From the NCBI GenBank assembly GCA_029194535.1, contig JARFXR010000003.1, forward strand, positions 62,001-126,000: a DNA stretch of 64,000 bases, written 5' to 3'. This DNA comes from Nitrospira sp. (GTDB lineage: Bacteria; Nitrospirota; Nitrospiria; Nitrospirales; Nitrospiraceae). This document shows, one piece after another, positions 28,037-43,121 of this stretch (positions within the stretch are counted from its first letter, which is position 1; every line of letters begins with the position of its first letter). The notes below the pieces were generated by a model. That model searched no databases. It saw only the letters and a list, made by a program, of their open reading frames with translations, and was not told the origin of the DNA. Made by a program: the position numbers and the translations under genes.

Positions 28037-28690
28037 ATGACAGATCGCCTTTCTCGCGCCGCCAAGCCGGGCCTGCAGGACCGTCCCCCGGAGCGGCTCC
28101 GGAGGACGGGCGGCTTCACGATCCTCGAAATCATCATCGTGCTCTTCCTGTTGACCGGATTGCTGACCATCATCATCCCACGCATCGGGATCGGCGAAAC
28201 CCTTGCATCCAACGGACGCAAGTGGGTCAGCGCCCTTCGAACATTCCAAGAGATGGCCGTCGCCGCACAGAAGCCCGTGCGATTGCACATCGATCTCGAA
28301 CGAGGACAGTACTGGCCGATGATCCTCCAGGACGGTGAGGAGAGAGTGCCCCTCAATGAAGTCTGGCAGACGCCGGTCAACTTACCCGAATCGATTCACA
28401 TTACGGACGTCCAGGTCGGACAGAAGAAGAGCAGCGCCGGCCGGGCTGCGCTGCTGTTTTATCCCAACGGTAAAATCGACCCCGTCGTGATGCACCTCAC
28501 CGACGACAGCAACAATCTGCTCGGGATCCAAGTGGAGCCGGTGACGGCCACCATCCGCGTCAGCGATCAACGAATTGAGCCTCCCCGACCCTGGACGCTG
28601 CCGGAACGCATTCGACAGCTGCTGCAGATTCAACAGACCCCTCCTGGGGTCAAGCCCGCCGCGCCCGTGGCGCCGGGTGGGCAGTCATAA
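28037..28690 (+). CDS. gspH: minor pseudopilin GspH
   Basis: 217 residues. The prepilin site G-FTILEIIIV lies near residue 26, followed by a hydrophobic helix. Ala/Arg-rich loops and a beta-rich globular part follow (LLFYPNGKIDPVVMHL...). The C-terminal 40 residues are Pro-rich (PPGVKPAAPVAPGG), an extension not usual for GspH. The assignment rests on position between gspG and gspI and on the pilin signature. Confidence 0.8.
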   Translation: MTDRLSRAAKPGLQDRPPERLRRTGGFTILEIIIVLFLLTGLLTIIIPRIGIGETLASNGRKWVSALRTFQEMAVAAQKPVRLHIDLERGQYWPMILQDGEERVPLNEVWQTPVNLPESIHITDVQVGQKKSSAGRAALLFYPNGKIDPVVMHLTDDSNNLLGIQVEPVTATIRVSDQRIEPPRPWTLPERIRQLLQIQQTPPGVKPAAPVAPGGQS

Positions 28691-28691
28691 G

Positions 28692-29102
28692 ATGCACGAC
28701 GCTCGAGGTTTCACCCTGCTGGAGGTGCTGATCGCCCTGGCCATCCTGGCGATGGCCCTGCCGATTCTCCTCGGCTTGCGCAACTTCGATTTGGGGCTGT
28801 ACTCGCGGGCCGACGACATTGTGGCTGCCACCATGCTCGCGCAGGAGAAGCTGATGGAAACGGAGGCGGCCACCGCCTTTCCGCTGGGCGAAACCGGCGG
28901 CGATTTTCAGAACCCTCCTCCCGGAGCTCAATCGCCGGCCGGATTCCAGAATCGGGCGGAGAAATACCGCTGGAAACGCTTGGTCACGACCACCATGCTG
29001 CCGAACGTTCGCGAAGTGAAGATCCAAATCATCTGGCCGCAGGGGGCTGCGGATGAAATGGTCGAGGTCAGCACCTATGTCTTTTCGTCCGCCTCGCTCT
29101 GA
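28692..29102 (+). CDS. gspI: minor pseudopilin GspI
   Basis: 136 residues from ATG 28692, 1 bp after the gspH stop. The very short leader is followed by G-FTLLEVLIALAILAMALP, the pseudopilin helix. The protein has the GspI-like internal pattern (AATMLAQEKLMETE). It should form the tip complex with GspJ and GspK. An in-frame start far upstream overlaps gspH and is unlikely. Confidence 0.9.
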   Translation: MHDARGFTLLEVLIALAILAMALPILLGLRNFDLGLYSRADDIVAATMLAQEKLMETEAATAFPLGETGGDFQNPPPGAQSPAGFQNRAEKYRWKRLVTTTMLPNVREVKIQIIWPQGAADEMVEVSTYVFSSASL

Positions 29103-29694
29103 GCAGGGATTTACGTTGGTCGAGGTGCTGCTGGCGGTCGCCCTGGTGGCCGTGATCGCCACGATGGTCTTCAGCGCGCTCTATCTGACCGCCAGCGCGA
29201 TCGACCGGACCCGGGCCGCGGCGACGGAGGAGCAATTGCTGCGGAGCACGCTGCGCGTCATGGCCGACGAACTGGCCATGAGCCTCCAACACCCCGCAAG
29301 TCCCTGGATCGGCATCAATGGGCAACAGGGAGGGGAACCGGCCGATACGATCGCGTTCATGACGGTCGGACCGTTTCGCGCGATGAACGCCGCAACCGAT
29401 ACGGAAATGGTCCGCATCGTCTATACCAGGAACGAAACCGCCCTGATGCGGATCGTCCGGCGCAATATCTTCGGCATCAACGACGAATCGCTGGAGCAAA
29501 TGGAACTGGCGAAGAAGGTGCGGGGGTTCAATGTCCGTTACTACAACCGGACCGGCAATATCTGGTCAGATGAGTGGGACGGGCGGGCCAGGTCCGGGGT
29601 CCCGACGGCGATCTTGATCGAGTTGAGCCTCGAGCAGGACGCGCCGGAGCCGCGGATCATCCGCCAGTGGGTGTCCGTCGGAGCCCCGTCATGA
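29077..29694 (+). CDS. gspJ: minor pseudopilin GspJ
   Basis: 205 residues from ATG 29077, chosen because GAGG stands about 9 bp upstream; ATG 29053 is the alternative. Prepilin site G-FTLVEVLLAV, then a long hydrophobic helix, then a beta-rich domain (LRVMADELAMSLQHP) typical of GspJ/PulJ. Overlaps the gspI end by 26 bp and the gspN start by 4 bp. Forms the tip with GspI and GspK. Confidence 0.9.
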   Translation: MSFRPPRSEQGFTLVEVLLAVALVAVIATMVFSALYLTASAIDRTRAAATEEQLLRSTLRVMADELAMSLQHPASPWIGINGQQGGEPADTIAFMTVGPFRAMNAATDTEMVRIVYTRNETALMRIVRRNIFGINDESLEQMELAKKVRGFNVRYYNRTGNIWSDEWDGRARSGVPTAILIELSLEQDAPEPRIIRQWVSVGAPS

Positions 29695-30593
29695 CCCTGC
29701 GCTTGCCCTGGTCCGGCATGGCAACCTCCATGAAGGAGCCGCTCCTCTGGACCGCAGCGGGAGCGCTCAGCTTCGTCGGCTTCCTGTTTCTGACCTTTCC
29801 GTTCCAGGCGCTGCAGGCCCGTATCCTGTCCGAAATTACGCGGGCTACCGGATGGGATGTACGGGCGGCAGGGTGGTCCGTCGAATTGCCGCTCGGCGTG
29901 GCCTGGCATGACGTGATGGTCTCAAGACCCAACGCCGCTCCGTTTCCGATCGAATCGATGACCATGAAGGTCGGGCTGTGGGCCCAACTCACGGGACGCC
30001 ACGCGCTGGACGCTTTGGTGCATTTCCCCGGTTCGGGGCAGCCAGGCGCGGCCAGGGCCACGGGAACCATCACGGCCTCGTCCTGGTCCTTTCAAGGACC
30101 GACGGCCGTGAAAGTCCACCTCCAGCAGATCGATCTCTCGTTGTTCCTTAAGCCGCTCGTCACAAAAGGTCTCTTCCGAGCCGATGTGGACCAGGCCTGG
30201 ATCGGCAACGCGGACGGAACCGTCGCATTCAAAGGCAACGGCACCTGGAAGGCAGAAGCAGCGGACCTGACCCTGGAGCAGATCCCGGCGGGGTCCAGCC
30301 GGCTTCCCTCGCTGACATTCAACCGTGTCATGCTCACGCTCATGTGCCGCAACGACCAATGCGACGTGAAGGAATTCAACGGAGAGGGTCCTGACGGGAC
30401 AATTTCCGGACAGGGCCGATTCCGCCTGATGCAACCGATCCAACAAACCGAGCTGGAGTTGAGCGTCACCGTCCAAGCCGGAGCCGGTTGGGCTCAAAAA
30501 TCCGCCGGACTGGCGCTCCCCCCGTTCCCGCCCGGCACCTCCCTCACGTTTAAAGTGCTCGGGACTATCGCAAATCCCAGGGTGTCGGTGTAG
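29691..30593 (+). CDS. gspN: type II secretion protein GspN
   Basis: 300 residues from ATG 29691, which overlaps the gspJ stop (ATGA). One N-terminal transmembrane helix (about 18-40), then a periplasmic beta-rich region with repeated short motifs (VKVHLQQIDLSL, FNRVMLTLMC, QGRFRLMQPI), which matches the GspN/AsmA-like pattern of this auxiliary T2SS protein. GspN is optional in many systems; its exact role is unsettled. Assignment rests mainly on topology and on its place in the operon. Confidence 0.75.
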   Translation: MTLRLPWSGMATSMKEPLLWTAAGALSFVGFLFLTFPFQALQARILSEITRATGWDVRAAGWSVELPLGVAWHDVMVSRPNAAPFPIESMTMKVGLWAQLTGRHALDALVHFPGSGQPGAARATGTITASSWSFQGPTAVKVHLQQIDLSLFLKPLVTKGLFRADVDQAWIGNADGTVAFKGNGTWKAEAADLTLEQIPAGSSRLPSLTFNRVMLTLMCRNDQCDVKEFNGEGPDGTISGQGRFRLMQPIQQTELELSVTVQAGAGWAQKSAGLALPPFPPGTSLTFKVLGTIANPRVSV

Positions 30594-30650
30594 TATCAAA
30601 GGTTCTGGTGCCAGGAATCAGCCTGGTCCCCTTGGAACAGTGAAGTTCAG

Positions 30651-32225
30651 ATGGTCGCCGAATGTGTGGGCCTCGATATCGGGCTGACGGCATTTAAGGC
30701 TGTGCGATTTCGCCGCCGCCTGACCGGCCGGGAGTCCGTCGAGTACTTTCATCTTCCACTCCCTTTCGGTCGTCCGGAAACCGCCGAACCGGCCAAGCGC
30801 GCCGGTCAATTACGAAGCTTCCTCTGGCAGCACGGTCTCTACGGCGGCGGCGACATTGTCACCGCTCTGCCCTGTCAGGACCTGTTCATCCGCACCCTGT
30901 CCTTTCCGTTCCGCGACGCCGCAAAACTGGCGCAGGTCGTACCGTTCGAGGTGGAAAATCTCATCCCCATGTCCCTGGAGGACGTGGCCATGGGGAGCAT
31001 GGTCCTGCCTGCGAGAGAATCGCCGGACGCCCCGCAGAAACCCAAGACCGCCGAAGTCCTCGTGACGGCCGCACCCAAGGAGAAAGTCGCCGAGCATCTT
31101 CAATTCCTAGCTGCGGCGGATTTGAAGCCCTCCGCGATCGGCGTGGACGGCATGGCGCTCTATTCGGTCACTCAGTTCCTGCAAGAGGAAGGGGCCCGCG
31201 TGCCCGGCGAACTGGCGATCATTGATGTCGGAGCGACAAAGACCACGCTCTGCCTCATTCGAGAAGGGCGCCCGACCCTGCTCCGTACCCTCCTGTGGGG
31301 CGGCAATCACCTTACCCATGCCCTGGCCGTCCGTTACGCCTGCAGTTTTGCGGAGGCCGAGCGACGCAAGCGAACCATGGCCGCTCAGGACGTCAATGCC
31401 TGGTTGGAGCCTCTGTTGAAGGAACTGCGCGTAACGTTGCACGCCTATGAGGGAAACGGACGCCAGCGTCTCTCCCATTGCTGGGTCTCAGGCGGAGGGT
31501 CGAAACTGCGGGAGCTGGGCGGACACGTCGCCCAGGAGCTCGGGCTGATTCCCGTCGGACCGCGGCAGGGATTCGGTGCGTCGTGCCCCAGAGCCTTTTC
31601 GATCGCCTTCGGCCTGGCCATCCATCCCAAGATCGTCCGCCCACGCTGGAAAACCAAAGCCATCGGCTCCGACCTTGCCGTCGATCTCAACGCCGGGACT
31701 GCCGCCGCCGCCGCACAGGTGGCGGCGTTGCGTCAGGACCGCCGGCTGGCCCTGTGGGGCGCCGTGGTGCTCGGCATTCTGGCGTTGATCGACCTTTCCG
31801 TGCGGGTCTACGTCAAGGACCGGGCCTTTACCGACGTCAAGCAAGCGCTTCACGCCGACTTCGTCCGCAGCTTCGGCGAAGGAGCCGGGTCGGGCGAGGA
31901 GATCGACGTGGCACGATATCGCGTCGGACAGCTCGAGAAGGGTCTTGCCGTCATCGACGGCAGCCGTTCGAACATGCTGGCCCACCTGTCGAGCCTGGCG
32001 AAGCAACTGCCGTCCGGCGTTCCCTTGACCATCCGGGATCTGACGATCGACGGTTCGACCGTCCATCTCGAAGGCGAAACCGCGTCGTTCGACGCGGTGG
32101 AAAAAATCAAGCAAGCGTTCTCCGGGAGCGGCAAGTTCCAAGACGTCTCGGTATCGGACACCCGAGTCGGGTCGACCGCCAGCCAAGTCGTCTTTCGCCT
32201 GGCCTATGTGGTGCCGCAGCCATGA
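30651..32225 (+). CDS. gspL: GspL-type protein (PilM-like actin fold plus PilN-like half)
   Basis: 524 residues. The N-terminal 370 residues form an actin/PilM fold: VGLDIGLTAFKAV at the start, IDVGATKTTLCLI around 190-202, and WVSGGGSKLRELG about 278-290, the nucleotide-binding patterns of PilM. A transmembrane helix near 375-395 is followed by a periplasmic PilN-like ferredoxin-fold segment (LTIRDLTIDGSTVHLEGETASFDAVEKI...). Fusion of PilM and PilN halves is the definition of GspL. It contacts GspE in the cytosol and GspM in the membrane. Confidence 0.88.
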   Translation: MVAECVGLDIGLTAFKAVRFRRRLTGRESVEYFHLPLPFGRPETAEPAKRAGQLRSFLWQHGLYGGGDIVTALPCQDLFIRTLSFPFRDAAKLAQVVPFEVENLIPMSLEDVAMGSMVLPARESPDAPQKPKTAEVLVTAAPKEKVAEHLQFLAAADLKPSAIGVDGMALYSVTQFLQEEGARVPGELAIIDVGATKTTLCLIREGRPTLLRTLLWGGNHLTHALAVRYACSFAEAERRKRTMAAQDVNAWLEPLLKELRVTLHAYEGNGRQRLSHCWVSGGGSKLRELGGHVAQELGLIPVGPRQGFGASCPRAFSIAFGLAIHPKIVRPRWKTKAIGSDLAVDLNAGTAAAAAQVAALRQDRRLALWGAVVLGILALIDLSVRVYVKDRAFTDVKQALHADFVRSFGEGAGSGEEIDVARYRVGQLEKGLAVIDGSRSNMLAHLSSLAKQLPSGVPLTIRDLTIDGSTVHLEGETASFDAVEKIKQAFSGSGKFQDVSVSDTRVGSTASQVVFRLAYVVPQP

Positions 32226-32773
32226 TGATGCAGACCCTCAAAGAGCGATGGCGCCATCTCGCTCCTCGCGAACGGATGATCGTGAGCATCGGGGGAGCGG
32301 TGCTCCTGGCGTGCCTTCTGTTACTGGTGCTGATCGATCCGCTGCTCACCACGATGGACCAGCTGGAGAGGAAAACCGTCCGCAAGCAGAAAGAACGATC
32401 GGAGCTGACTCTGTTGGCCGCGGAATACGCCGCGAAGCAGGCCAGACTGGCTCAGCGCGAGCAACGGCTCCCACCGACCGAGAGCAATTTCTCCCTGTTG
32501 GCCTTCATGGAAGAGGCGGCCACGTCGGCTCAGCTCAGGGACCGTATCGTCGGCATGCAACCCCAGCAGCCGACCACGGTACAAGGCTATCAGGAAACCG
32601 CCGTCGATCTCCGCCTTGACGGCGTGGAACTCCCGCAGCTCCTGGCACTCCTGGTCGTGCTGGAGCAGGCACCCTACGATGTTCAAGTGCGACACATCCA
32701 GATCAAGCCGAAGTACGACAATCCGGTCAGTTTGGATGCCTCGCTGAGAATCGTCACCTATGTCAAGGTCTGA
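32222..32773 (+). CDS. gspM: type II secretion protein GspM
   Basis: 183 residues from ATG 32222, overlapping the gspL stop. The layout is a short cytosolic N-terminus (KERWRHLAPRERMIV), one transmembrane helix (about 20-43), a coiled-coil-like stretch (about 45-85), and a ferredoxin-like C-terminal domain. This matches GspM/PulM. It binds GspL in the inner-membrane platform. The family is weakly conserved, so the assignment leans on position. Confidence 0.85.
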   Translation: MMMQTLKERWRHLAPRERMIVSIGGAVLLACLLLLVLIDPLLTTMDQLERKTVRKQKERSELTLLAAEYAAKQARLAQREQRLPPTESNFSLLAFMEEAATSAQLRDRIVGMQPQQPTTVQGYQETAVDLRLDGVELPQLLALLVVLEQAPYDVQVRHIQIKPKYDNPVSLDASLRIVTYVKV

Positions 32774-33707
32774 CGAGCGCGGCGTCGCCCTCCTTCTCGC
32801 GCTGTTGATCCTCACCCTCCTCGTCGCCTTGATCTTGGAGTTTGACTCCGAGGCGCGGCGTGAATACCGGGACGCGGCAGCCTTCCGAGACAGCTTCAAG
32901 GCCACGGTGTTGACGCGCGCTGCGGTACAGGCGGCCAGGGCCGTCCTCCAACAGGATTTCCTCAAGGACCGGCAAGCCGGAAAATTCTACGACGCGCCGA
33001 CGGACCTCTGGGCCTTTCCGATTCAGCAATACCCCATTGGAGACGGTATGTTGAGCGCACAAATTGAGGACGAGCGCGGCAAGCTGAATCTCAACGACTT
33101 GGCGGCGGGAGGGGACCCCAACGCCAGAAAAAACAAGGTGCTCCGGGTGAAGCGCCTGTTCGAACTGATGCAGATCAGCCCCGAAATCGTCGATGCGATC
33201 GTCGACTGGATCGACCCCGACGATACCCCTGAGCCGGCCGGCGCCGAAACCCTCTACTACCAATCGCTGCATCCGCCGTATCGGGCCGCGAACGCCCCGC
33301 TGCAGACTGTGGAGGAACTCCGGCTCGTCAAGGGGATGACAGCGGACAGCTTCGACAAGATCTCCCGCTATATCACGGTGTATCCTCAGGAGGGCGAGGG
33401 CCGCATGAATCTCAATACCGCCGAGTTGATCGTACTGCAGACGTTGGATGCGCGCGTCAGCCAGGCCGTCGCAGGCGAGATCATTCAAGGCCGGCCCTAC
33501 AAGACCATTCAAGAACTGGATCGCGTCGGAAGCTTCGAGGCGGTGGGAAAGGAACTGCGCCTTCAGAATGCGTACGACATCAAGAGCGACGTGTTTTCCG
33601 CCCGCATGACGCTGACCGTCAACGACGTCGTCAGGCACGCCATCGTGACCCTCCGCCGGGACGCCAATACCGGCACCAGCACCGTCCTGTATTACCGCGT
33701 CCTCTAG
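32760..33707 (+). CDS. gspK: minor pseudopilin GspK
   Basis: 315 residues, overlapping the gspM end by 14 bp. The N-terminus has RG-VALLLALLILTLLVAL without the Glu at +5, as is usual for GspK. The large alpha-domain insertion contains SAQIEDERGKLNLNDL, AIVDWIDPDDTPEPAGAE and PLQTVEELRLVKGM, the conserved GspK core, and a helix-hairpin-helix-like end. GspK caps the pseudopilus with GspI and GspJ. It is the last gene in the operon; 167 bp follow before the PstS-like gene. Confidence 0.92.
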   Translation: MSRSDERGVALLLALLILTLLVALILEFDSEARREYRDAAAFRDSFKATVLTRAAVQAARAVLQQDFLKDRQAGKFYDAPTDLWAFPIQQYPIGDGMLSAQIEDERGKLNLNDLAAGGDPNARKNKVLRVKRLFELMQISPEIVDAIVDWIDPDDTPEPAGAETLYYQSLHPPYRAANAPLQTVEELRLVKGMTADSFDKISRYITVYPQEGEGRMNLNTAELIVLQTLDARVSQAVAGEIIQGRPYKTIQELDRVGSFEAVGKELRLQNAYDIKSDVFSARMTLTVNDVVRHAIVTLRRDANTGTSTVLYYRVL

Positions 33708-33763
33708 CCTCCGCTCTGCCTTCCCAAGCCGCAGACGCCGGCTCCCCGGTCGATCGCGGCGAG

Positions 33764-33796
33764 AGTTAACAATCTTGTAACATTCAGGTTACCGGC
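33764..33796 (+). promoter_or_regulatory. PhoB-box-like array upstream of the first PstS gene
   Basis: Three 11-bp units: TTAAC at 33766-33770, GTAAC at 33777-33781 and TTACC at 33788-33792, each exactly 11 bp apart and each followed by A/T- or mixed-rich spacer. Direct repeats at 11-bp period are the design of PhoB sites. TAAGAT at 33814-33819 could be the -10 element. The start codon of the gene is at 33875. Confidence 0.6.
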
Positions 33797-33874
33797 CGGA
33801 AACCCCTGCCCGGTTAAGATGTGACGACGGAACTCGGTTTGATTCGGGCGACTTTACGGAGAAAGGAACCAGGA

Positions 33875-34957
33875 ATGTTGCACACAATGCTCAAACGAGG
33901 TGTATGGCTCATCGGTGCCTGTGCGCTCGCCGCAACGGTCGATCCCGCCGCCGCCGAACAGGGAGGGCCATTCGCATCGCTGAGCCCGGACAACGAACTT
34001 GCGCGTTACACCCCTCAGAGCCAGGTGAAGGGCAGCCTCAAGATCCAGGGATCGGAAACCATGTACCCGCTGCTCTCCCGCTTGAGTCTCGAATTTCAGC
34101 GCCGCCAACCAAACGTCCGCATCGAAGTGCGCGGCGGGGGATCGTCCAAAGCGATCGAGGAATTTCTCCAACCCCCCTTAAGCAAGACCGGCAAAGTGAT
34201 GCTCAAGGAGGAGCGCTCGCAATATTTCTCCCTGGTCGCGACCTCACGCGAGCTGTTCGATTCGGAACTCAAGGAATTCGTCGCGCAGCATAATTACGAA
34301 CCGATGGCCGTACCGGTCGCGGTCGACGCCGTGGCCATCTACGTCCACAAGGAGAATCCCTTGACCGCGCTGACGCTCGAGCAGGTGGACGCGATGTTCT
34401 CCAGTACCCGCCTGCGCGGGCACAAAACTCCGATCACACAGTGGGGTCAACTCGGGCTTTCCGACGGCTGGACCGATGCCTCGATCCAGCTCTACGGCCG
34501 GGACAGGAAGTCCGGCACGCGGGCCTTTTTCCAGGAGCACTGTCTGGGAGGCGGTGAATTCATCCCGGCGGTGCATGAGAATCCGGGAGCGGCCTCGGTG
34601 ATTCTGAGTCTCAGCCGAGATCAGCTTGGCATCGGATACAGCGGCCTCGGTCTGGAATCCTCGATCGTACGCGCCGTTCCTCTGGCCGAAGCCGCCGGCA
34701 TGCCCTTCGTCAGTCCCTCGCCCGCCGCCGTCGCCGACCAGTCCTATCCGTTGCGACGCATCCTCTATCTCTACCTGGACAAGTCTCCCAAAACATCCCT
34801 CCCGCCTGCCGCCCAGGAGTTCCTGGTCTTCCTGATGAGCCAGGATGGTCAGCAGGCGGTGGTCAAGGCCGGCTTCTTCCCGTTGCCTGCGCAGCAGATC
34901 AACAAGAGCGCTGTCGCGTTGGATAGTGCGGCGGGATCGGCTCCGGTTCGGCGTTAG
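33875..34957 (+). CDS. PstS-family phosphate-binding protein (copy 1)
   Basis: 360 residues from ATG 33875, preceded by GGAGAAAGGAACCAGGA and followed by a signal peptide (cleavage near AAAEQ, about 27). The mature part has the phosphate-binding fold: KIQGSETMYPLLSRLSLEFQRRQPNVRIEVRGGGSSKAIEEF, then GRDRKSGTRAFFQEHCLGG with the Arg/Ser/Gly phosphate-loop motif, and a tail SQDGQQAVVKAGFFPLP typical of PstS-type SBPs. It is separate from the pstSCAB operon but has the same type of promoter array. Whether it binds phosphate or a related oxyanion is not settled by the sequence. Confidence 0.85.
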   Translation: MLHTMLKRGVWLIGACALAATVDPAAAEQGGPFASLSPDNELARYTPQSQVKGSLKIQGSETMYPLLSRLSLEFQRRQPNVRIEVRGGGSSKAIEEFLQPPLSKTGKVMLKEERSQYFSLVATSRELFDSELKEFVAQHNYEPMAVPVAVDAVAIYVHKENPLTALTLEQVDAMFSSTRLRGHKTPITQWGQLGLSDGWTDASIQLYGRDRKSGTRAFFQEHCLGGGEFIPAVHENPGAASVILSLSRDQLGIGYSGLGLESSIVRAVPLAEAAGMPFVSPSPAAVADQSYPLRRILYLYLDKSPKTSLPPAAQEFLVFLMSQDGQQAVVKAGFFPLPAQQINKSAVALDSAAGSAPVRR

Positions 34958-34968
34958 CGCGACAACCC

Positions 34969-35898
34969 TCACGGGGTGGAGCTCTTGCGGGGAGGCGCCT
35001 TGGACGGTTTGGCCTGGTCCATCTCAAGTCGAAGACGATTCATCTCCTCGGTCAACGCCTTCATTTGGTTGGCCTGATCGTCCAGCCGGCCGCGTAGTTC
35101 GAGGTTGGAGTTCGTGAGCTCGCGGACTTGGTTCTGCAGATCCTGCCTCGACGGCCCGCCGTCCCCACCGGCCGGAGTCGGCATGGCGGACTCCCGGCCG
35201 ATCTGGACCGGGGGTTTCGCCGAGCGAAGCGCGATGGCTTCCTTCATATCCAGCGAGACGTGAACCGTCTCGAACGGCGCCCACTTGGGCTCTTCGGCAT
35301 CGGGAACGACGGCTGCGCGGGCCGGGCTTGCCACCCACAGCTTCATACCTTTGGTATCCCGCGGATCCTTCAGGTCATCGCCGCCGGTGTCGGCACGGGT
35401 CAACGACGCATGATCGGTGAGCACGACGTGCAGATACTTGTCCCGGACGAACAGAGAGCCGATCGTTCTGTTGTCGCTGTACTTCACGCCGGGCTTGGGG
35501 AACGAAAACGTCACGCGCTCCGCCGCCCCGGCCTGCCGAAGGGCGTCTGACAGGGGACCCGAGTATGCATCAAGCTGTTCATCGGGCAACAACGGCACAG
35601 GTCTGGGATTCTCGAAGATTCCGACGATCGTCCCCGTCCAGCCGCTCACTTCGACCGCGCCCAGCAGCGTTCGCACTTCGGCCGCGGCCAAGTTGGCGGG
35701 ATGAGCATTGTGAACCTCGGTCTTCGCGCGCGCGATCGACGGATCACGCTCAAGACCGACCTTCGCGCCCCCCTGATTGTAGGTCGTCCGCTCACCGGTC
35801 AATGCCGCGCAGGCGGACATTCCCGCGACCGTGACGACAAGGCATGCCACGATGACCCATCGCGTGCTCACAAACGGCGCCGTGATTACTGTCCACAT
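34969..35898 (-). CDS. lipoprotein with C-terminal coiled coil
   Basis: 309 residues from ATG 35898. A transmembrane/signal segment (about 13-27) ends in GMSAC, a plausible lipobox with Cys28 as lipidation site. The central region has no known motif. The last 60 residues are a predicted coiled coil rich in Leu, Asn and Glu (QVRELTNSNLELRGRL, QMKALTEEMNRLRLEM) followed by a basic Pro/Ser tail. The protein probably sits in the periplasm, anchored to a membrane. It is convergent with the PstS copy 1 gene (11 bp between stops) and overlaps the next gene by 13 bp. Confidence 0.7.
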   Translation of the reverse strand: MWTVITAPFVSTRWVIVACLVVTVAGMSACAALTGERTTYNQGGAKVGLERDPSIARAKTEVHNAHPANLAAAEVRTLLGAVEVSGWTGTIVGIFENPRPVPLLPDEQLDAYSGPLSDALRQAGAAERVTFSFPKPGVKYSDNRTIGSLFVRDKYLHVVLTDHASLTRADTGGDDLKDPRDTKGMKLWVASPARAAVVPDAEEPKWAPFETVHVSLDMKEAIALRSAKPPVQIGRESAMPTPAGGDGGPSRQDLQNQVRELTNSNLELRGRLDDQANQMKALTEEMNRLRLEMDQAKPSKAPPRKSSTP

Positions 35899-36221
35899 GT
35901 GAATTGAATCCCCCAGATCCGTTCGGTCCCCATTTGCCCGCGCCAGTTGCGATCGGCGGTCTTGCTGATCTTGGGAATTTCCCCTTCCTTGACGATGCGC
36001 GAGCCGTTCGGACACTTGCCGGCGATCACACGAAGCGCATCCCGTCGGCCCGCGGATGACAACACATCTCCCTCGTTCTGGATCGGAAACGTGACGACTC
36101 CGCCCGTCTCGGTCTCACGGATGAGAGAGGCCCCATGACCGCAACCGGCCGCTGCAGCGCCGGCCATCAACAACAGGAGAAGCGGACAGCCTCTGTGATA
36201 CCATGGCCGCATCTGCCACAT
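35886..36221 (-). CDS. small lipoprotein of unknown function
   Basis: 111 residues from ATG 36221; a TTG 24 bp upstream is an alternative start. The N-terminus is a lipoprotein signal (LLLLMAGAAAAGC) with the lipid-bearing Cys about residue 27. The mature part has two further cysteines (one in GKCPNGSRIV, the other in QFTCGQ at the end), which could form a disulfide, and is otherwise beta-like. No family recognised. The 3' end overlaps the next gene's start by 13 bp, so the two are likely one operon. Confidence 0.65.
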   Translation of the reverse strand: MWQMRPWYHRGCPLLLLLMAGAAAAGCGHGASLIRETETGGVVTFPIQNEGDVLSSAGRRDALRVIAGKCPNGSRIVKEGEIPKISKTADRNWRGQMGTERIWGIQFTCGQ

Positions 36222-36291
36222 CCTGGCCCGACGATCTCTATTCAATCAATTCCCACCCTCTCCCACCCTCGCCGCGGTCTCTGCGACGTTT

Positions 36292-36825
36292 CTATCGGGA
36301 GACGCACCACGTCTGGTTTTCGAGCGTTTCGTATCCTGCTCCGAACGAGGGGAAATCGGCAATTTCACGCCCCCCTGTATTCCAAATGTGAAGGCATTTG
36401 ACCTCCAGGTTCGGAAGGCTGCGCGGAATGTCGTCCACGACGACGACCTTTGCCAATCTGGTTGTTCCAACCACGATCACTCTGTTTCCTCGTTGGAGAA
36501 ACTTCGGTTCGAGGGTTCCTGAAAAGGTGGCAGCGAACTCGCCGCTCCGTTTTCCGGTATCTTTCGGCCCGTAGGCGGGATGCCTGACGATCGGAAGTTG
36601 CCTCAGCACCAGCGTGATCGCGTCGCCTTTCACGTCAGATTGCAGGATGGCGCCGCCAAGTTCCGCTTTCTTGCCCTCATCCTGGTTCGGCAGCGCCCGC
36701 CATCGAGAAAAGTCGAACTCCTGATCCACCCCCTCCATGACCTCCGGAGCGAACACTTGAGAGGGCGAGCAGGCACCCCATATCAGAGAGGCCAACAACA
36801 TCGCAGTCGCTGAGACACGTTTCAT
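36292..36825 (-). CDS. Slp-family outer-membrane lipoprotein
   Basis: 177 residues. The signal ends in LIWGAC with Cys at about 19, a lipobox. The mature part follows the Slp (starvation lipoprotein) family: GAILQSDVKGDAITLVLRQLPI, and GTLEPKFLQRGNRVIVVGT near 105-123. Slp proteins are outer-membrane lipoproteins raised in stationary phase or stress. The gene lies between the small lipoprotein and the porin, all on the minus strand; the gap to the porin gene is 74 bp. An extra Cys pair lies in the C-terminal segment. Confidence 0.85.
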   Translation of the reverse strand: MKRVSATAMLLASLIWGACSPSQVFAPEVMEGVDQEFDFSRWRALPNQDEGKKAELGGAILQSDVKGDAITLVLRQLPIVRHPAYGPKDTGKRSGEFAATFSGTLEPKFLQRGNRVIVVGTTRLAKVVVVDDIPRSLPNLEVKCLHIWNTGGREIADFPSFGAGYETLENQTWCVSR

Positions 36826-36899
36826 ATCATTCCTCCTTACTCCCTAGCCGCTTTCCGATGCAATGAGAAACTTTTCACGGACGGCTTCGGCTTCCAGGG

Positions 36900-38465
36900 T
36901 TACATGAACCGGACTTGAAACTGCACGAAGAACGCATTGTTGGCGAAAGGATCCGTGGCCGAATTATAGGGCGGTGTGTCGGGCCCGGTGCCCAGACCTT
37001 GGTGATGCCGGAATTCGTAATTGAGCTGGATTTTCGATTGAACCTTGGGTGGAAAATTTTCGAAATAGTAGGTGAGTCCGACGATGGTTCGTTCATACAA
37101 ATCATTCCCCATGTTGGTATTGGGATCGAACTGCTCCCACATGACGGTCGGCTCGAAATTCTCCAATGGTCCCTCAGTGAAGAGATACTTGCCCAGCACA
37201 TAATAGGTTCTTCTCATCATGCCGGGCGCTCCCGAACCTCCGCAAACCGCCGTGACTTGACAGTTCCCGTTCGCGCCGATTCCCACCGTGGTGGCGTTGG
37301 CGCCGTCGTGCCCTTGCCAGTACTCGCCTTGCACCATGAAGCCCGGCAGGATCTTCGAGGTATAACGGAAATCGACCGCGTAACGATCGAATATCCCCTT
37401 TCCTCGTCCGTTGATCAACGTCCCCGCGTTGTTGGATTCGCCTTGGATGGTGGTGAAGCTGACGAAGGACACGTCGTTTCCGAACAGCCGCACACGAGCG
37501 TACCAGGCCTTCGGCGAGTTAGCTCCCCCGAGTCCGGAGGTCGTATTCACCAAGGCATTGGCCTGGAAGTTATTGTTGTTCATGACACCGGTCACATACT
37601 CGATCCGGTTGGCGATTTTGCCCCGCACGTCGATGAAATAGTCGCGCTCCTGCACGAACTCGATCGATCCGCCTGTTCCATTCTGGTTCTGCGGCGGCCC
37701 GCCGCCGCCGCCGACTTGCGTCAAATACGGCGAGCTGATCACGTCCCGCAACCCACCCGACTGTTCGGTGAAGATACCGAACGGCATCCGGAAGATACCG
37801 AGCCGGATGAGGTTCAAATTTGGAGCCCAGGCCTGAATCGGCCTCACGTCGATGTAGCTTTCGCGGAAGAACGTCGAAGCCGTCGGGGTCCCGAGCTGGT
37901 TGGCTGCGGCCGGCGTATTACTCGTCAGGTTGATGCTCTGGAACTCCATGAGAATGTGCCAGCGTGGGATCGTTTCGCTGATCTTGCCCCAAAACAGCAC
38001 TTCCGATCGCCGAATGGAAAAGCTGTCCTGGCTGCGTCCTTCCGGAACCTGCGTGTCCAGATGACCGTAGAGAAACTGCAACGCGTTGAGTCCGAAATTG
38101 ATCTTGTCTCTGAGGATCGGCAGCAGTTCCGTCTTGTTCTTCCACTCTTCCAGTGAATCGATGCGCCGCGATTGATCCGCCACGCGATACTCCTGTTCCG
38201 CGCGGATCTGAATCCATTCGTCCATCGTAATCGCGCCCTTTTGCAGCAGCAGATCTTCAATCGCCGTACCGCCCGGCGGCAGGTCTTTCGCCGGAGCCGG
38301 CCCCTGAGTCGGCGTCGGCTCGTCGGCCTTCTGCGCCACGATCACCGGCGGCGTGGCGGACGGCGCGCTCTTCGCCGTGCCCGCCAGTGACGGCGGCGCC
38401 TGCAGGCCCAGCATCAGCGCCAGCACTCCCAACGTTGAGCTTACCTGTAATCGAACCCTCGTCAT
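36900..38465 (-). CDS. outer-membrane porin, phosphate-selective (OprO/OprP) type
   Basis: 521 residues from ATG 38465, with GGGGGGAA about 6-13 bp upstream and a signal peptide following (about 1-28). The next part is Pro/Ala-rich, then a segment DLLLQKGAITMDEWIQIRAE, found at the start of OprO/OprP-like porins, then a coiled coil (QSRRIDSLEEWKNKTE) and a long beta-rich domain with many aromatic/Gly alternations (YFIDVRGKIANRIEYV, FMVQGEYWQGHD, IQLNYEFRHHQGLG). The chain ends VQFQVRFM, with the aromatic near the C-terminus usual for beta-barrels. Its promoter region shares the PhoB-like array with the divergent pstS. Phosphate selectivity is inferred from context. Confidence 0.85.
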   Translation of the reverse strand: MTRVRLQVSSTLGVLALMLGLQAPPSLAGTAKSAPSATPPVIVAQKADEPTPTQGPAPAKDLPPGGTAIEDLLLQKGAITMDEWIQIRAEQEYRVADQSRRIDSLEEWKNKTELLPILRDKINFGLNALQFLYGHLDTQVPEGRSQDSFSIRRSEVLFWGKISETIPRWHILMEFQSINLTSNTPAAANQLGTPTASTFFRESYIDVRPIQAWAPNLNLIRLGIFRMPFGIFTEQSGGLRDVISSPYLTQVGGGGGPPQNQNGTGGSIEFVQERDYFIDVRGKIANRIEYVTGVMNNNNFQANALVNTTSGLGGANSPKAWYARVRLFGNDVSFVSFTTIQGESNNAGTLINGRGKGIFDRYAVDFRYTSKILPGFMVQGEYWQGHDGANATTVGIGANGNCQVTAVCGGSGAPGMMRRTYYVLGKYLFTEGPLENFEPTVMWEQFDPNTNMGNDLYERTIVGLTYYFENFPPKVQSKIQLNYEFRHHQGLGTGPDTPPYNSATDPFANNAFFVQFQVRFM

Positions 38466-38550
38466 GTCGATTCCCCCCTGGTTGGTATGGGACTGGATCT
38501 CGGTCACAGTACGGGTGTAGCCGAGATGGATCACGGCGCAATTGCCGCGC

Positions 38551-38583
38551 GGTTACAGGATTGTTAACAAATGCTTGTCACGA
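38551..38583. promoter_or_regulatory. PhoB-box-like array on the porin side of the pst/porin intergenic region
   Basis: Three 11-bp units: GGTTACAGGAT at 38551-38561, TGTTAACAAAT at 38562-38572, GCTTGTCACGA at 38573-38583. Positions 3-8 of the units line up (TTACA, TTAACA, TTGTCA). Read on the minus strand the units are TGACAAGC, TGTTAACA and CTGTAACC, which fits a site serving the porin gene at 38465. GTTAAC is palindromic, so the orientation is not certain. Confidence 0.6.
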
Positions 38584-38624
38584 GGATTCGGAATCGCGGC
38601 GGTTCTGCCGACTCAGGGCGAAGA

Positions 38625-38657
38625 AATTAACGCGGTGTTAACAGAGACGTCATCGAG
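38625..38657 (+). promoter_or_regulatory. PhoB-box-like array upstream of pstS
   Basis: TTAAC at 38627-38631, TTAAC at 38638-38642 and GTCAT at 38649-38653 are 11 bp apart. The pstS start is at 38739. The third unit GTCAT is close to the E. coli Pho-box core. The gap to the start codon is right for a promoter with its -10 in the 38660s; AAAGATT there is a weak candidate. Confidence 0.6.
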
Positions 38658-38738
38658 CCGAAAGATTCCTCGCACATGCTGAGCGTTGCAGGAGGCGAAC
38701 GTGCCGTCTCGAAGGAGTCATAGGAAAGGAGCCCGTCC

Positions 38739-39752
38739 ATGAAGAGGATGCAGCAAGCCGGAAGCGCCCTCACAGGCCTTGGCCTGATCGGAATGCTCCT
38801 GTGGTTCAGCAGCCCGACCTTGTCCCAGCCCACGGCGCTGGTCAAGGTGGACGGATCGAGCACCGTCTTTCCGATCACCGAAGCCGTAGCGGAGGAATTT
38901 CAGAAAAGCGCGCGCGGATCGGTTCGCGTCACGGTGGGCATTTCCGGCACAGGCGGGGGCTTCAAGAAATTCTGCCGAGGCGAAACGGATCTGCAGGACG
39001 CCTCCAGGCCCATCCAGTCCGGTGAAATGGAGGCCTGTCGAGCCAACGGGGTGTCATACATCGAACTGCCTGTCGCCTTCGACGCGCTGACGATTGCCGT
39101 GAGTCCGCAGGCGACGTGGGTCGACCACCTCACTCTGGATGAACTCAAGCGGATCTGGGAACCCTCCGCGCAAGGCCGCATCATGAAATGGAGCCAGATT
39201 CGTCCCACCTGGCCCAACGTTCCGCTCAAGCTGTTCGGGGCCGGGTCCGACTCCGGGACATTCGATTACTTCACGGAAGCCGTGGTCGGCAAAGCCAAAG
39301 CCAGCCGCGGCGACTATACGGCCAGCGAAGACGACAACACGTTGGTCCAAGGAATTTCTCACGACAAACAAGCGCTTGGATACATCCCCTACGCGTATTT
39401 CGAGCCCAACCAGCAACGCCTTAAAGCGGTCGCGATCGATGGAGGCAAGGGGCCCGTGCTGCCCTCCCGCGTGACCGTCGAGAACGGCATGTACCAGCCG
39501 CTCTCACGCCCGCTGTTCATCTATGCCAACGCCAAAGCGGCCGAACGCACAGAGGTCAAGCGGTTCGTCGAGTTCTATTTGGCTCAGGCGGCGACGTTGG
39601 CGCCGCAGGTCAAGTACGTTCCGCTTCCCGCGCAGGCCTACTATCTGGCACTGACGCACTTTCGGAACGGAAAGGTCGGCACCGCCTTTCAGGGCGCTTC
39701 CTCAATCGGCATCAAGATCGAGGAATTACTGCGTCGGGAAGCGACACCGTAG
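38739..39752 (+). CDS. pstS: phosphate ABC transporter substrate-binding protein PstS
   Basis: 337 residues. Signal peptide about 1-30. The mature sequence begins with ALVKVDGSSTVFPITEAVAEEF, the standard PstS phosphate-site opening; SGTGGGFKKFCRGETDLQDASRPI follows, and LFGAGSDSGTFDYFTEAV is the second phosphate-contacting loop. The gene opens the pst operon (24 bp before pstC) and is preceded by PhoB-like repeats. This is the canonical Pst binding protein; 33875-34957 encodes a second one. Confidence 0.95.
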   Translation: MKRMQQAGSALTGLGLIGMLLWFSSPTLSQPTALVKVDGSSTVFPITEAVAEEFQKSARGSVRVTVGISGTGGGFKKFCRGETDLQDASRPIQSGEMEACRANGVSYIELPVAFDALTIAVSPQATWVDHLTLDELKRIWEPSAQGRIMKWSQIRPTWPNVPLKLFGAGSDSGTFDYFTEAVVGKAKASRGDYTASEDDNTLVQGISHDKQALGYIPYAYFEPNQQRLKAVAIDGGKGPVLPSRVTVENGMYQPLSRPLFIYANAKAAERTEVKRFVEFYLAQAATLAPQVKYVPLPAQAYYLALTHFRNGKVGTAFQGASSIGIKIEELLRREATP

Positions 39753-39775: not shown

Positions 39776-40720
39776 ATGGACGCCGAAGCCACCAAGCCCG
39801 ATCTACTGAAGCACGCGCAAGCCATTCACGTCCCGCCTGTTTTTCCCCCACGATTCAAAGAGAAGGTCGTCGAATGGCTCTTGATGATCACCGCCCTGGC
39901 GTCGGTGGCCGTCACTGTCGGGATCGTCGGCGTCCTTTCTTATGAGTCCTTTCTGTTCTTTCGACAAGTTTCGGTCCTTGATTTCTTGACGGACAGCCAA
40001 TGGACGCCTCTGTTCTCGGAGCCGCACTACGGCATTCTTCCCCTCGTGTCCGGCACCGTCGTGACCACCGCCGTGGCACTGCTCGTGGCCATTCCGGCCG
40101 GCACCGTGGTTGCCGTCTATCTGAGCGAATACGCGTCTCCCGCGCTACGCGAAGCCGTCAAGCCTGCCTTGGAACTGCTGAGCGCCGTGCCGACCGTCGT
40201 GTATGGCTACTTCGCGCTGCTCTTCGTCACGCCCGCGTTGCAGTGGATCTGGCCGGACCTGCCCGGCTTCAACATGCTCAGCGCCGGATTCGTCATCGGT
40301 ATCATGATCGTGCCCTACGTCAGCTCGGTGAGCGAGGATGCCATGCGGGCCGTTCCGCTCGCCCTCCGCGAGGGCGCCTATGCCCTGGGCGCCACACGCA
40401 TGCAGACGTCGCTCCGCGTGGTGTTTCCCTCCGCCCTGTCCGGCATCGCCGCCGCGTACGTGCTCGGTGTGTCTCGGGCCATCGGAGAAACCATGGTGGT
40501 CGCCATCGCCGCCGGTATGCAGCCGACTCTGACCTGGAACCCGCTGGAGCCGGCCGCCACGATGACCGCCTATATCGTTCAAGTCAGCCTGGGAGACCTC
40601 CCGCACGGCAGCATCGGGTACCGGACCATTTTTGCGACGGGTCTGACACTGTTGCTCATGACATTCATCTTCAACCTGGCCGGCCATGTCCTTAGAAAAC
40701 GCTACCGCCAAGTCTATTAG
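39776..40720 (+). CDS. pstC: phosphate ABC transporter permease PstC
   Basis: 314 residues. Six predicted helices follow a cytosolic N-terminus of about 30 residues. The permease signature is seen in EGAYALGATRMQTSLRVVFPSALSGI (the EAA-type loop) and in SRAIGETMVVAIAAG. The second gene of the operon pstS-pstC-pstA-pstB-phoU. Its end overlaps the pstA start by 35 bp. Confidence 0.95.
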   Translation: MDAEATKPDLLKHAQAIHVPPVFPPRFKEKVVEWLLMITALASVAVTVGIVGVLSYESFLFFRQVSVLDFLTDSQWTPLFSEPHYGILPLVSGTVVTTAVALLVAIPAGTVVAVYLSEYASPALREAVKPALELLSAVPTVVYGYFALLFVTPALQWIWPDLPGFNMLSAGFVIGIMIVPYVSSVSEDAMRAVPLALREGAYALGATRMQTSLRVVFPSALSGIAAAYVLGVSRAIGETMVVAIAAGMQPTLTWNPLEPAATMTAYIVQVSLGDLPHGSIGYRTIFATGLTLLLMTFIFNLAGHVLRKRYRQVY

Positions 40721-41630
40721 TTCCGGTCCCGATCGCAGGCGCCTGGCCCGCCGCAAGCGAGTCGATGTGCTGGTTGCACGGACTGGATTTGTTGTTACGC
40801 TGACAGTCCTCAGTGTGCTGCTCGCGCTGATCGGCCAATTGGCGGTGGAAGGCGTCGGTCGCCTGTCCTGGCAGTTTCTGACTTCCTATCCGTCACGGCT
40901 CGCGGCACAGGCGGGCATTTTGAGCGCCTGGGTCGGGACGATCCTCGTCATGCTACTGACCGCGCTCGTGGCGGTTCCCTTGGGACTCGGAACGGCCGTC
41001 TACCTGGAAGAGTATGCGCCGAAAAACCGGCTGACCACCCTGATCGACATTAATATTGCCAATCTGGCCGGCGTGCCGTCGATCGTCTACGGCCTGACGG
41101 CGCTCGCGCTGTTCGTTTATGAGTTCCGCCTCGGGCAAAGCTTCCTGACTGCCGGCTTGACTCTGACTCTTCTGGTGCTGCCGATGATCATCATCGCCGC
41201 CCGCGAAGCCCTCCGGGCCGTACCGCCGCAGATCCGAGAGGCCGCCTCTGCGCTCGGCGCCACCAAGTGGCAGACGGTCAAGCACCATGTCCTGCCCTGC
41301 TCCATGGGAGGCATCATGACCGGGTTGATTCTGGCGCTGTCCCGCGCGGTGGGGGAAACGGCCCCGCTGATGACCGTCGGCGCCCTGTCCTTCATCGCAT
41401 TTCTGCCGCAGCCTCCCTGGCTATCCGACGTACCGTTCATCTCATTCCAGTGGATGCTCGATCCCTTTACCGTCATGCCGATTCAGATGTTCAACTGGGT
41501 CTCGAGGCCGCAAGAGGACTTCCACGTGAACGCCGCGGCGGCAGGGCTGATTCTGCTGTTGATGACGTTGGCGATGAACGGGTTGGGGATCGCGGTGCGT
41601 GCGCGTTTTAGGAAACGAATCCGTTGGTAG
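40686..41630 (+). CDS. pstA: phosphate ABC transporter permease PstA
   Basis: 314 residues. The N-terminal 30 residues are basic and cytosolic, then six helices. The EAA-loop region [20 protein letters not shown] and [14 protein letters not shown] match PstA. The 5' end overlaps pstC by 35 bp in a different frame; that overlap is longer than usual but the start codon gives a coherent protein. Works with PstC as the membrane channel. Confidence 0.93.
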
Positions 41631-41635
41631 AGGAC

Positions 41636-42421
41636 ATGTCCGTAACAGCACCACCGAACAGCGGATTGAAGGCGGAATCTAGAGGCCTGAGCTTCTTCTA
41701 CGGCAACGTCCAAGCGCTGAAGGGGATTTCACTCGGTTTGCCCGATCGTCATGCTACGGCGCTGATCGGACCGTCCGGATGCGGCAAGACGACCTATCTC
41801 CGGTGTCTCAATCGGATGCATGATTTGTATCCGGGCAACCGGTACGAAGGCGAGCTGCTGCTCTATCCGGAGCGGATCAACTTGGTGGCCTCCAACATCG
41901 ATCCCGTCGAAATCCGCATGCGCGTCGGGATGGTCTTCCAGCGGCCGAACCCGTTTCCCAAGTCCATTTATGAAAACGTGGCCTATGGCTTGAAGATCCG
42001 CGGGGGCATGAAGCGAGCCGACCTGGATCAGGCCGTCGAGCGGGCCCTCCGCGATGCAGCCCTCTGGCCCGAGGTCAGAGACCGCCTCCACGATCAGGCG
42101 TTCAACCTCTCGGGAGGACAGCAGCAGCGCCTGTGCATCGCCCGGGCGCTGGCCACGAGACCGGAAATCCTCCTGTTCGACGAACCCACGTCGGCCCTGG
42201 ACCCCACAGCGACCGCGCGCATCGAGGAACTGGTCAACGATATCAAGCAGAAGGTGACGATCGTGATCGTCACCCATAACATGCAGCAAGCGGCTCGCGT
42301 GTCCGACTACACGGCCTTTATGTACGAAGGCCGCTTGATCGAGTGCGATCGAACGGACAAGATCTTCACCAACCCATCGAACATACTGACCGAAGCGTAC
42401 GTGACCGGCCGGTTCGGCTAG
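41636..42421 (+). CDS. pstB: phosphate ABC transporter ATPase PstB
   Basis: 261 residues from ATG 41636; a TTG four codons upstream is an alternative. Walker [10 protein letters not shown] near residue 42, signature [15 protein letters not shown] near 159-173, Walker [14 protein letters not shown], and the switch His in [21 protein letters not shown]. Supplies energy for PstCA. The start codon is 6 bp past the pstA stop. Length and motifs are typical. Confidence 0.96.
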
Positions 42422-42440: not shown

Positions 42441-43121
42441 ATGCAACGGCACTTCGATCAAGAACTGGCGGAACTGAGGACGCAGATCCTCCGCATGGGT
42501 GCGCTGGTCGAACGGCAGATCGAGGGTTCGATCCAGGCGCTGGTGAATCGAGACGTGCACCTGGCCTCCCGCATCATCGAACGCGATGCCCTCGTGAACG
42601 GCCTCGACGTGGAGATCGACGAGACCTGCATCCGCCTACTCGCGTTGCAAGCGCCGGCCGCCAGCGACCTTCGATTCATCACGACGGCGATGAAAATCTC
42701 AACCGAACTGGAACGCATGAGCGACCTGGCCGAGAACATCAGCGAACGCGTCATCGAGTTGAACGGAGAGCCGCAGCTCAAACCCTATATCGACATTCCC
42801 AGCATGTCGAGCTGGACGATGCGGATGGTAGGCGAATGCCTGGAAGCGTTCGTCCGCTCGGACGCTGCGTTGGCCAGAAAAGTCTGTGCGGACGACGATG
42901 TTATCGACGACCTCACGCACCAACTGTTCCGAGAACTCCTGTCTTTCATGCTCGAAAAGCCCGGCACGATCACCCGCGCCATCCGCCTTACGTTCATCGG
43001 CAAGTACCTCGAGCGTATCGCCGACCACGCCACCAACGTCGCAGAATTGGTGATCTACATGGTAGAAGGCAAGATCATCCGCCACACGAGTGAACACGCG
43101 CGTGCGGACAACGGCGCCTGA
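42441..43121 (+). CDS. phoU: phosphate signalling regulator PhoU
   Basis: 226 residues, all-helical, made of two PhoU repeats. Each contains the metal-binding and conserved pattern: TAMKISTELERMSDLAENI in the first and FIGKYLERIADHATNVAEL in the second (Glu/Asp ligands). PhoU links Pst transport state to the PhoR/PhoB two-component system and limits phosphate uptake. It is 19 bp after pstB; the operon probably ends here at the hairpin at 43151. No phoR or phoB is in the window. Confidence 0.95.
   Translation: MQRHFDQELAELRTQILRMGALVERQIEGSIQALVNRDVHLASRIIERDALVNGLDVEIDETCIRLLALQAPAASDLRFITTAMKISTELERMSDLAENISERVIELNGEPQLKPYIDIPSMSSWTMRMVGECLEAFVRSDAALARKVCADDDVIDDLTHQLFRELLSFMLEKPGTITRAIRLTFIGKYLERIADHATNVAELVIYMVEGKIIRHTSEHARADNGA

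Follow-up and report, generated by a model that had tools for sequence, protein, structure and literature searches.

Putative PhoB operators with TTAAC-type half-sites upstream of phosphate-uptake genes in a Nitrospira genome

Three arrays of short direct repeats lie upstream of phosphate-uptake genes in a 64-kb stretch of Nitrospira DNA (the window; 60.5% G+C), which raises the question of whether they are operators of a PhoB-type regulator and how their half-sites relate to the Escherichia coli unit, CTGTCAT. A sequence-only reading of the window had described three PhoB-box-like arrays, each of three units at 11-bp spacing, in front of a PstS-like gene, a porin gene and the pst operon. Genes were identified using Pfam and NCBIfam profiles, and the flanking genes were confirmed as encoding a PstS-family protein, an outer-membrane porin and PstSCAB-PhoU.

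Repeat arrays and genes of the phosphate-uptake cluster

PhoB-dependent promoters are expected to have at least two direct repeats with an 11-bp period, and all three predicted promoters were found to carry four units in exact 11-bp register. The predicted pstS2 promoter (array 1; 33764..33819, plus strand) comprises TTAAC (33766-33770), GTAAC (33777-33781), GTTAC (33788-33792) and GAAAC (33799-33803), followed after a 10-bp gap by TTAAGA (33814-33819) as a potential -10 box or, one base farther and as the best match, by TAAGAT (33815-33820). The predicted pstSCAB-phoU promoter (array 3; 38625..38680, plus strand) comprises TTAAC (38627-38631), TTAAC (38638-38642), GTCAT (38649-38653) and GAAAG (38660-38664), with CATGCT (38675-38680) in the -10 position after a 10-bp gap. 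These two arrays, starting from 33766 and 38627, had been described correctly in strand and spacing. Array 2 is also present, although its strand and units had been misread: the predicted promoter of the porin operon (38514..38569) faces the porin on the minus strand, with the units TTAAC (38563-38567), GTAAC (38552-38556), GCAAT (38541-38545) and GTGAT (38530-38534), a 10-bp gap and TACACC (38514-38519) as the -10 box. The plus-strand reading was dropped because its cores leave the register and its third unit, GTCAC at 38577, is 14 bp away and unconserved, whereas the minus-strand reading is the conserved one. In all three arrays, a fourth unit 11 bp beyond the third had been overlooked.

The pstS2 gene (33875..34957, plus strand; PF12849, 1e-31; TIGR02136, 1e-51, under its cut-off) encodes a PstS-family phosphate-binding protein and starts with ATG, while a longer GTG open reading frame would open right after the -10 box. 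The pst operon on the plus strand consists of pstS (38739..39752; TIGR02136, 288 bits), pstC (39776..40720; TIGR02138), pstA (40686..41630; TIGR00974), pstB (41624..42421; TIGR00972) and phoU (42441..43121; TIGR02135), all of which score over the respective cut-offs. The outer-membrane porin (36900..38465, minus strand) has no Pfam match, but 16 strands and an N-terminal helix were predicted in a low-confidence structure model (pLDDT 49), for which the best Foldseek matches include OprO (first) and OprP (fourth); given the poor model, the OprO/OprP likeness is supportive only. Downstream of the porin and in the same orientation is a gene for a Slp-family lipoprotein (36292..36825, minus strand; PF03843), a possible member of the porin operon. 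In total, three minus-strand genes follow the porin (34969-36825), encoding this lipoprotein and two unknown proteins, and these may be part of a phosphate-regulated outer-membrane operon. On the other side of the cluster, type II secretion pseudopilin-like genes (28037-33875), with gspK last, abut the pstS2 promoter, and in several relatives the gspK end has kept its place upstream of pstS2. Hxc in Pseudomonas is a secretion system tied to phosphate supply.

The arrays were picked by eye, and TTAAC is frequent in some genomes, so they could be chance AT-rich words in a GC-rich genome. The 64-kb window contains three copies of the strict pair [GT]TAAC-N6-[GT]TAAC, at 33766 (plus), 38627 (plus) and 38552 (minus), all in the intergenic regions pointed out in the sequence-only reading, and the pair was absent from the window at every other spacing between 7 and 15 bp. 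A rough post hoc estimate gives about 7e-4 pairs expected by chance in the roughly 440 bp of intergenic DNA, compared with the three seen. Against the chance explanation, only six matches to the pair were found in the whole genome (3,979,322 bases), three of them in this cluster, while a reversed control pattern gave 15. Of the others, two overlapping matches at C1:380053 form a single site close to the gene of an NtrC-family regulator, which was rejected as it has neither a fourth unit nor a -10 box, and the remaining match (C1:1871324) was set aside as it is inside a coding frame. Eight other three-unit KTNAY matches were also rejected, being mostly in or across open frames with low matrix scores, except for the C1:380053 site. 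This site, TTAACGGGGTGTTAACGGTTAGTTAA (L019:8052-8078), is the genome's only further strict-pair site in non-coding DNA and is located between the NtrC-family regulator gene, beyond which lies a nitrite-oxidoreductase-like gene, and a flavoprotein gene.

Units 2 and 3 of the pstS2 array could alternatively be taken as an inverted repeat (GTAAC-N6-GTTAC) to which an unrelated repressor binds as a symmetric dimer, as the arms of GTAACATTCAGGTTAC in this genome are perfectly symmetric. This reading was dropped because the symmetry is broken in orthologues, where unit 3 is GTCAT, GTCAC, GTGAT or TTTAC and the KTNAY pattern is kept; the pstS and porin arrays are likewise asymmetric, and we consider a symmetric operator extremely improbable.

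Conservation of the operator and its -10 box in relatives

In other Nitrospirota, pstS orthologues are preceded by the array at a distance of roughly 75-350 bp, and related genomes likewise have it in front of their orthologues of pstS2 and the porin gene; the motif is conserved across the Nitrospiraceae, while some of the pstS and pstS2 relatives examined lack a clear array. A matrix from pstS arrays alone found most pstS2 arrays, and vice versa, with most cross-recognised arrays outscoring every one, or almost every one, of 356 control segments. Our first model, R1, gave 29 matches with E ≤ 0.1 in the relatives; 28 of these are located upstream of pstS, pstS2, porin or phoB genes at distances of up to a few hundred bp, one of the 28 pointing away from its porin, and the same genes account for about 11 of the 12 matches outside the training set (both manual tallies). 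The more distant porins under the motif are Porin_O_P proteins, a phosphate-selective porin family (OprP-type), and weaker matches were obtained at psiE and at a PhoB-like regulator adjoining a CHAD-domain gene. By position, the genes behind predicted Pho promoters are pstSCAB-phoU and those for a PstS-family protein and an OprO/OprP-like porin, with psiE and phoB paralogs added in relatives. The idea of Pho-box operators in front of phosphate-uptake genes, as put forward in the sequence-only reading, gains support from this family-wide conservation and from the matrix matches at phosphate genes of relatives.

Two further observations were made in these genomes. One relative (G004; L236:8000-8240, C1 about 1,895,000) has a second porin copy with a porin-facing array plus another array that closely resembles that of pstS; the latter faces away from the porin, and the next 870 bp or so downstream of it contain no called gene. 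This locus is probably what is left of a duplicated pst cluster. In two relatives, a similar yet distinct element, TTAACAAttnGTTAACACAAaCTTGA (L240:8595 and 19748; L242:4483), lies in front of genes for a glycosyltransferase (L240) and for polysaccharide synthesis (L242), and is perhaps the site of another regulator.

In total, 31 orthologous arrays, picked on units 1-3 only, were aligned and extended. Conservation of units 1-3 is partly circular, since the arrays were chosen by those units, whereas unit 4 and the -10 box played no part in the selection. At the next 11-bp step, a fourth unit, GNAAY, was apparent (G in 29/31, A in 26/31 and A in 29/31 arrays), with the word GNAA at +11 in 25 of the 31. 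Exactly 10 bp past this unit is a -10 element, TANNNT (T in 25/31, A in 28/31 and T in 23/31); the full word occurs at this offset in 19 of the 31 arrays and in at most two at every other offset. As the relatives share common ancestry, these counts represent non-independent events. The promoters of psiE and of the phoB paralogs, which were not used to define the pattern, share the layout of four units and a -10 box. This conservation across many species, in register and with a fixed -10 box, already refutes the chance explanation because unit 4 and the -10 box are conserved despite lying outside the selection, and its remaining probability is negligible.

The E. coli pstS promoter, which has two pho boxes in tandem and was retrieved for comparison, features GTCAT, GTCAT, TACAT and GTCAC, a 10-bp gap and TATTTT, while phoA features GTCAT and GTCAC, a 10-bp gap and TATAGT. 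With the same 11-bp direct repeats, four units at pstS and 10 bp to a TANNNT-type -10 box, the spacing is identical to that observed here, and the architecture thus corresponds to the canonical PhoB promoter design.

Regulon size and the candidate regulator

Searching the genome with a three-unit model found only the pstS2 and pstS arrays. R2, a 58-column model of the operator and -10 box whose training set includes the porin promoter (which was outside the training of R1), gave exactly three matches at E ≤ 10 among the best 150 candidates scored, and these are the three promoters of this cluster: pstS2 (1.6e-7), pstSCAB-phoU (2.7e-6) and porin (2.1e-5). As all three are R2 training members, the informative part is that nothing else in the genome comes close. 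The E-values of these custom models are rough, and because only the 150 best first-look candidates were scored, weaker or differently built sites may escape. The sequence-only reading had proposed a matrix scan of the genome as a check for enrichment upstream of other phosphate genes; such genes were found with the matrix in relatives, but the matrix search of this genome gave no further site, no other match at E ≤ 10 and no Pho box upstream of phoB-pnpS. The regulon of strong boxes in this genome would therefore be this one cluster.

The best PhoB match in the genome, and its one PhoB, is encoded at C2:663255 and is followed by a PnpS-family histidine kinase, with a PiT transporter gene and a DUF47-type gene converging on the pair. 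This PhoB scores 246 bits, below the NCBIfam PhoB equivalog cut-off of 296, and no other NCBIfam family fits this regulator better than the PhoB model. The kinase scores 407.5 bits against a PnpS cut-off of 400.

Eleven-bp repeats are also recognised by other OmpR-family regulators, such as WalR/YycF, and the link to phosphate could then be incidental. The WalR/VicR box is an 11-bp direct repeat, TGTWAH-N5-TGTWAH (PMC4168254), and TGTAAC in single units here fits this half-site; the kinase beside phoB also scores well against WalK, and three more OmpR-type regulators of the genome match the PhoB model over its full length. However, the WalR/VicR box has two half-sites only and its known targets are other than the phosphate genes found here, whereas the matches in relatives are at pst, Porin_O_P, psiE and phoB rather than cell-wall genes. 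The best family of the regulator is PhoB, and the kinase is over the PnpS cut-off but under that for WalK. Target genes and four-unit layout both favour PhoB, and we regard a WalR-like regulator as improbable.

A second phoB (71-77% identical) with a Pho box about 90-130 bp upstream was identified in four congeneric genomes (L259, G003; L260, G002; L261, G001; L262, G004), and has no match in the genome of the window at E ≤ 1e-80. At this second type of phoB the matrix score is 17-28, compared with below zero at the first type, which, independently of pst, connects the motif with PhoB. In G003 and G002, the second phoB lies downstream of a gene for an ABC transporter; the genes that follow this phoB in G003 are similar to those for ornithine-lipid acyltransferases.

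Half-site sequence and the proposed promoter model

The sequence-only reading had suggested that the half-site of this organism may be shifted from the E. coli form, and TTAAC/GTAAC is indeed favoured over GTCAT, which appears only as unit 3 of array 3; CTGTCAT is absent as a general form. At pstS, units 1-2 of the 12 three-unit Nitrospirota loci have A as their middle base in 21 of 24 cases and C in none, whereas the middle base is mostly C (9/16) in the eight proteobacterial loci with units. Both groups share T at the second position and A at the fourth, bases that are found in nearly every E. coli unit. These counts indicate that the shift is mainly a one-position change, from C to A at the centre of the unit, and the preference for TTAAC was already known from cyanobacteria. 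The cyanobacterial SphR Pho box consists of three copies of CTTAACCT with 3-bp linkers, giving a TTAAC core and an 11-bp period (PMC1906773); it is found upstream of pstS and sphX and, like the arrays described here, has at least three units, but the units here are graded from TTAAC at the start of the array to GNAAY at its end, and AAC is followed by A or G instead of C. The Pho-box consensus differs between species (PMC4415409), so CTGTCAT is no defining feature of the wider family. No description of a Pho box in Nitrospira-like bacteria was found in a literature text search. In Bacillus subtilis, the PhoP box consists of several TTAACA repeats per promoter, about 11 bp apart with less rigid spacing, and its half-sites are similar to those of this genome's arrays.

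The recognition helix, RTVDVHIRR, is identical in this PhoB and E. coli PhoB, and the residues of this helix in E. coli are said, in a 2002 report by Blanco et al., to contact DNA. The two proteins differ in the wing of the DNA-binding domain (SVKSLGY here, TVRGTGY in E. coli).

Collectively, the repeats, their spacing, the -10 box, conservation, gene context and the identical recognition helix indicate that each array is very probably an operator for a PhoB-type (OmpR-family) regulator in a phosphate-starvation promoter of conventional design; from these sequence features we infer PhoB binding, phosphorylation and induction at low phosphate. In the proposed model, low phosphate would lead the PnpS/PhoR-type kinase encoded beside phoB to phosphorylate PhoB, two dimers of which would bind head to tail on four 11-bp direct repeats (TTAAC, KTAAC, KTNAY, GNAAY), with GCAAT and GTGAT as units 3 and 4 in the variant at the porin promoter. 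The final unit, 10 bp upstream of the TANNNT box, would stand in for a -35 element, and phosphorylated PhoB would recruit sigma-70 polymerase and thereby turn on pstSCAB-phoU, the extra binding protein gene pstS2 and the OprP-like porin.

More tentatively, and with slightly less than an even chance in our estimation, these operators could represent a lineage-typical Nitrospirota dialect of the PhoB operator, with four graded units read by a regulator that has the E. coli recognition helix, so that the change in base preference would be set outside this helix. In this genome the regulon of strong boxes would have shrunk to one uptake cluster with the loss of phoB autoregulation, as phoB has no visible autoregulatory box, a difference from E. 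coli, while relatives would keep a second, autoregulated phoB. The combined operator and -10 box provide a promoter model for phosphate-starvation control in Nitrospira-like bacteria, which predicts genes responsive to low phosphate. In addition, an altered half-site paired with an unaltered PhoB helix would be a clean case that could help to locate the residues that set the central base of the unit.
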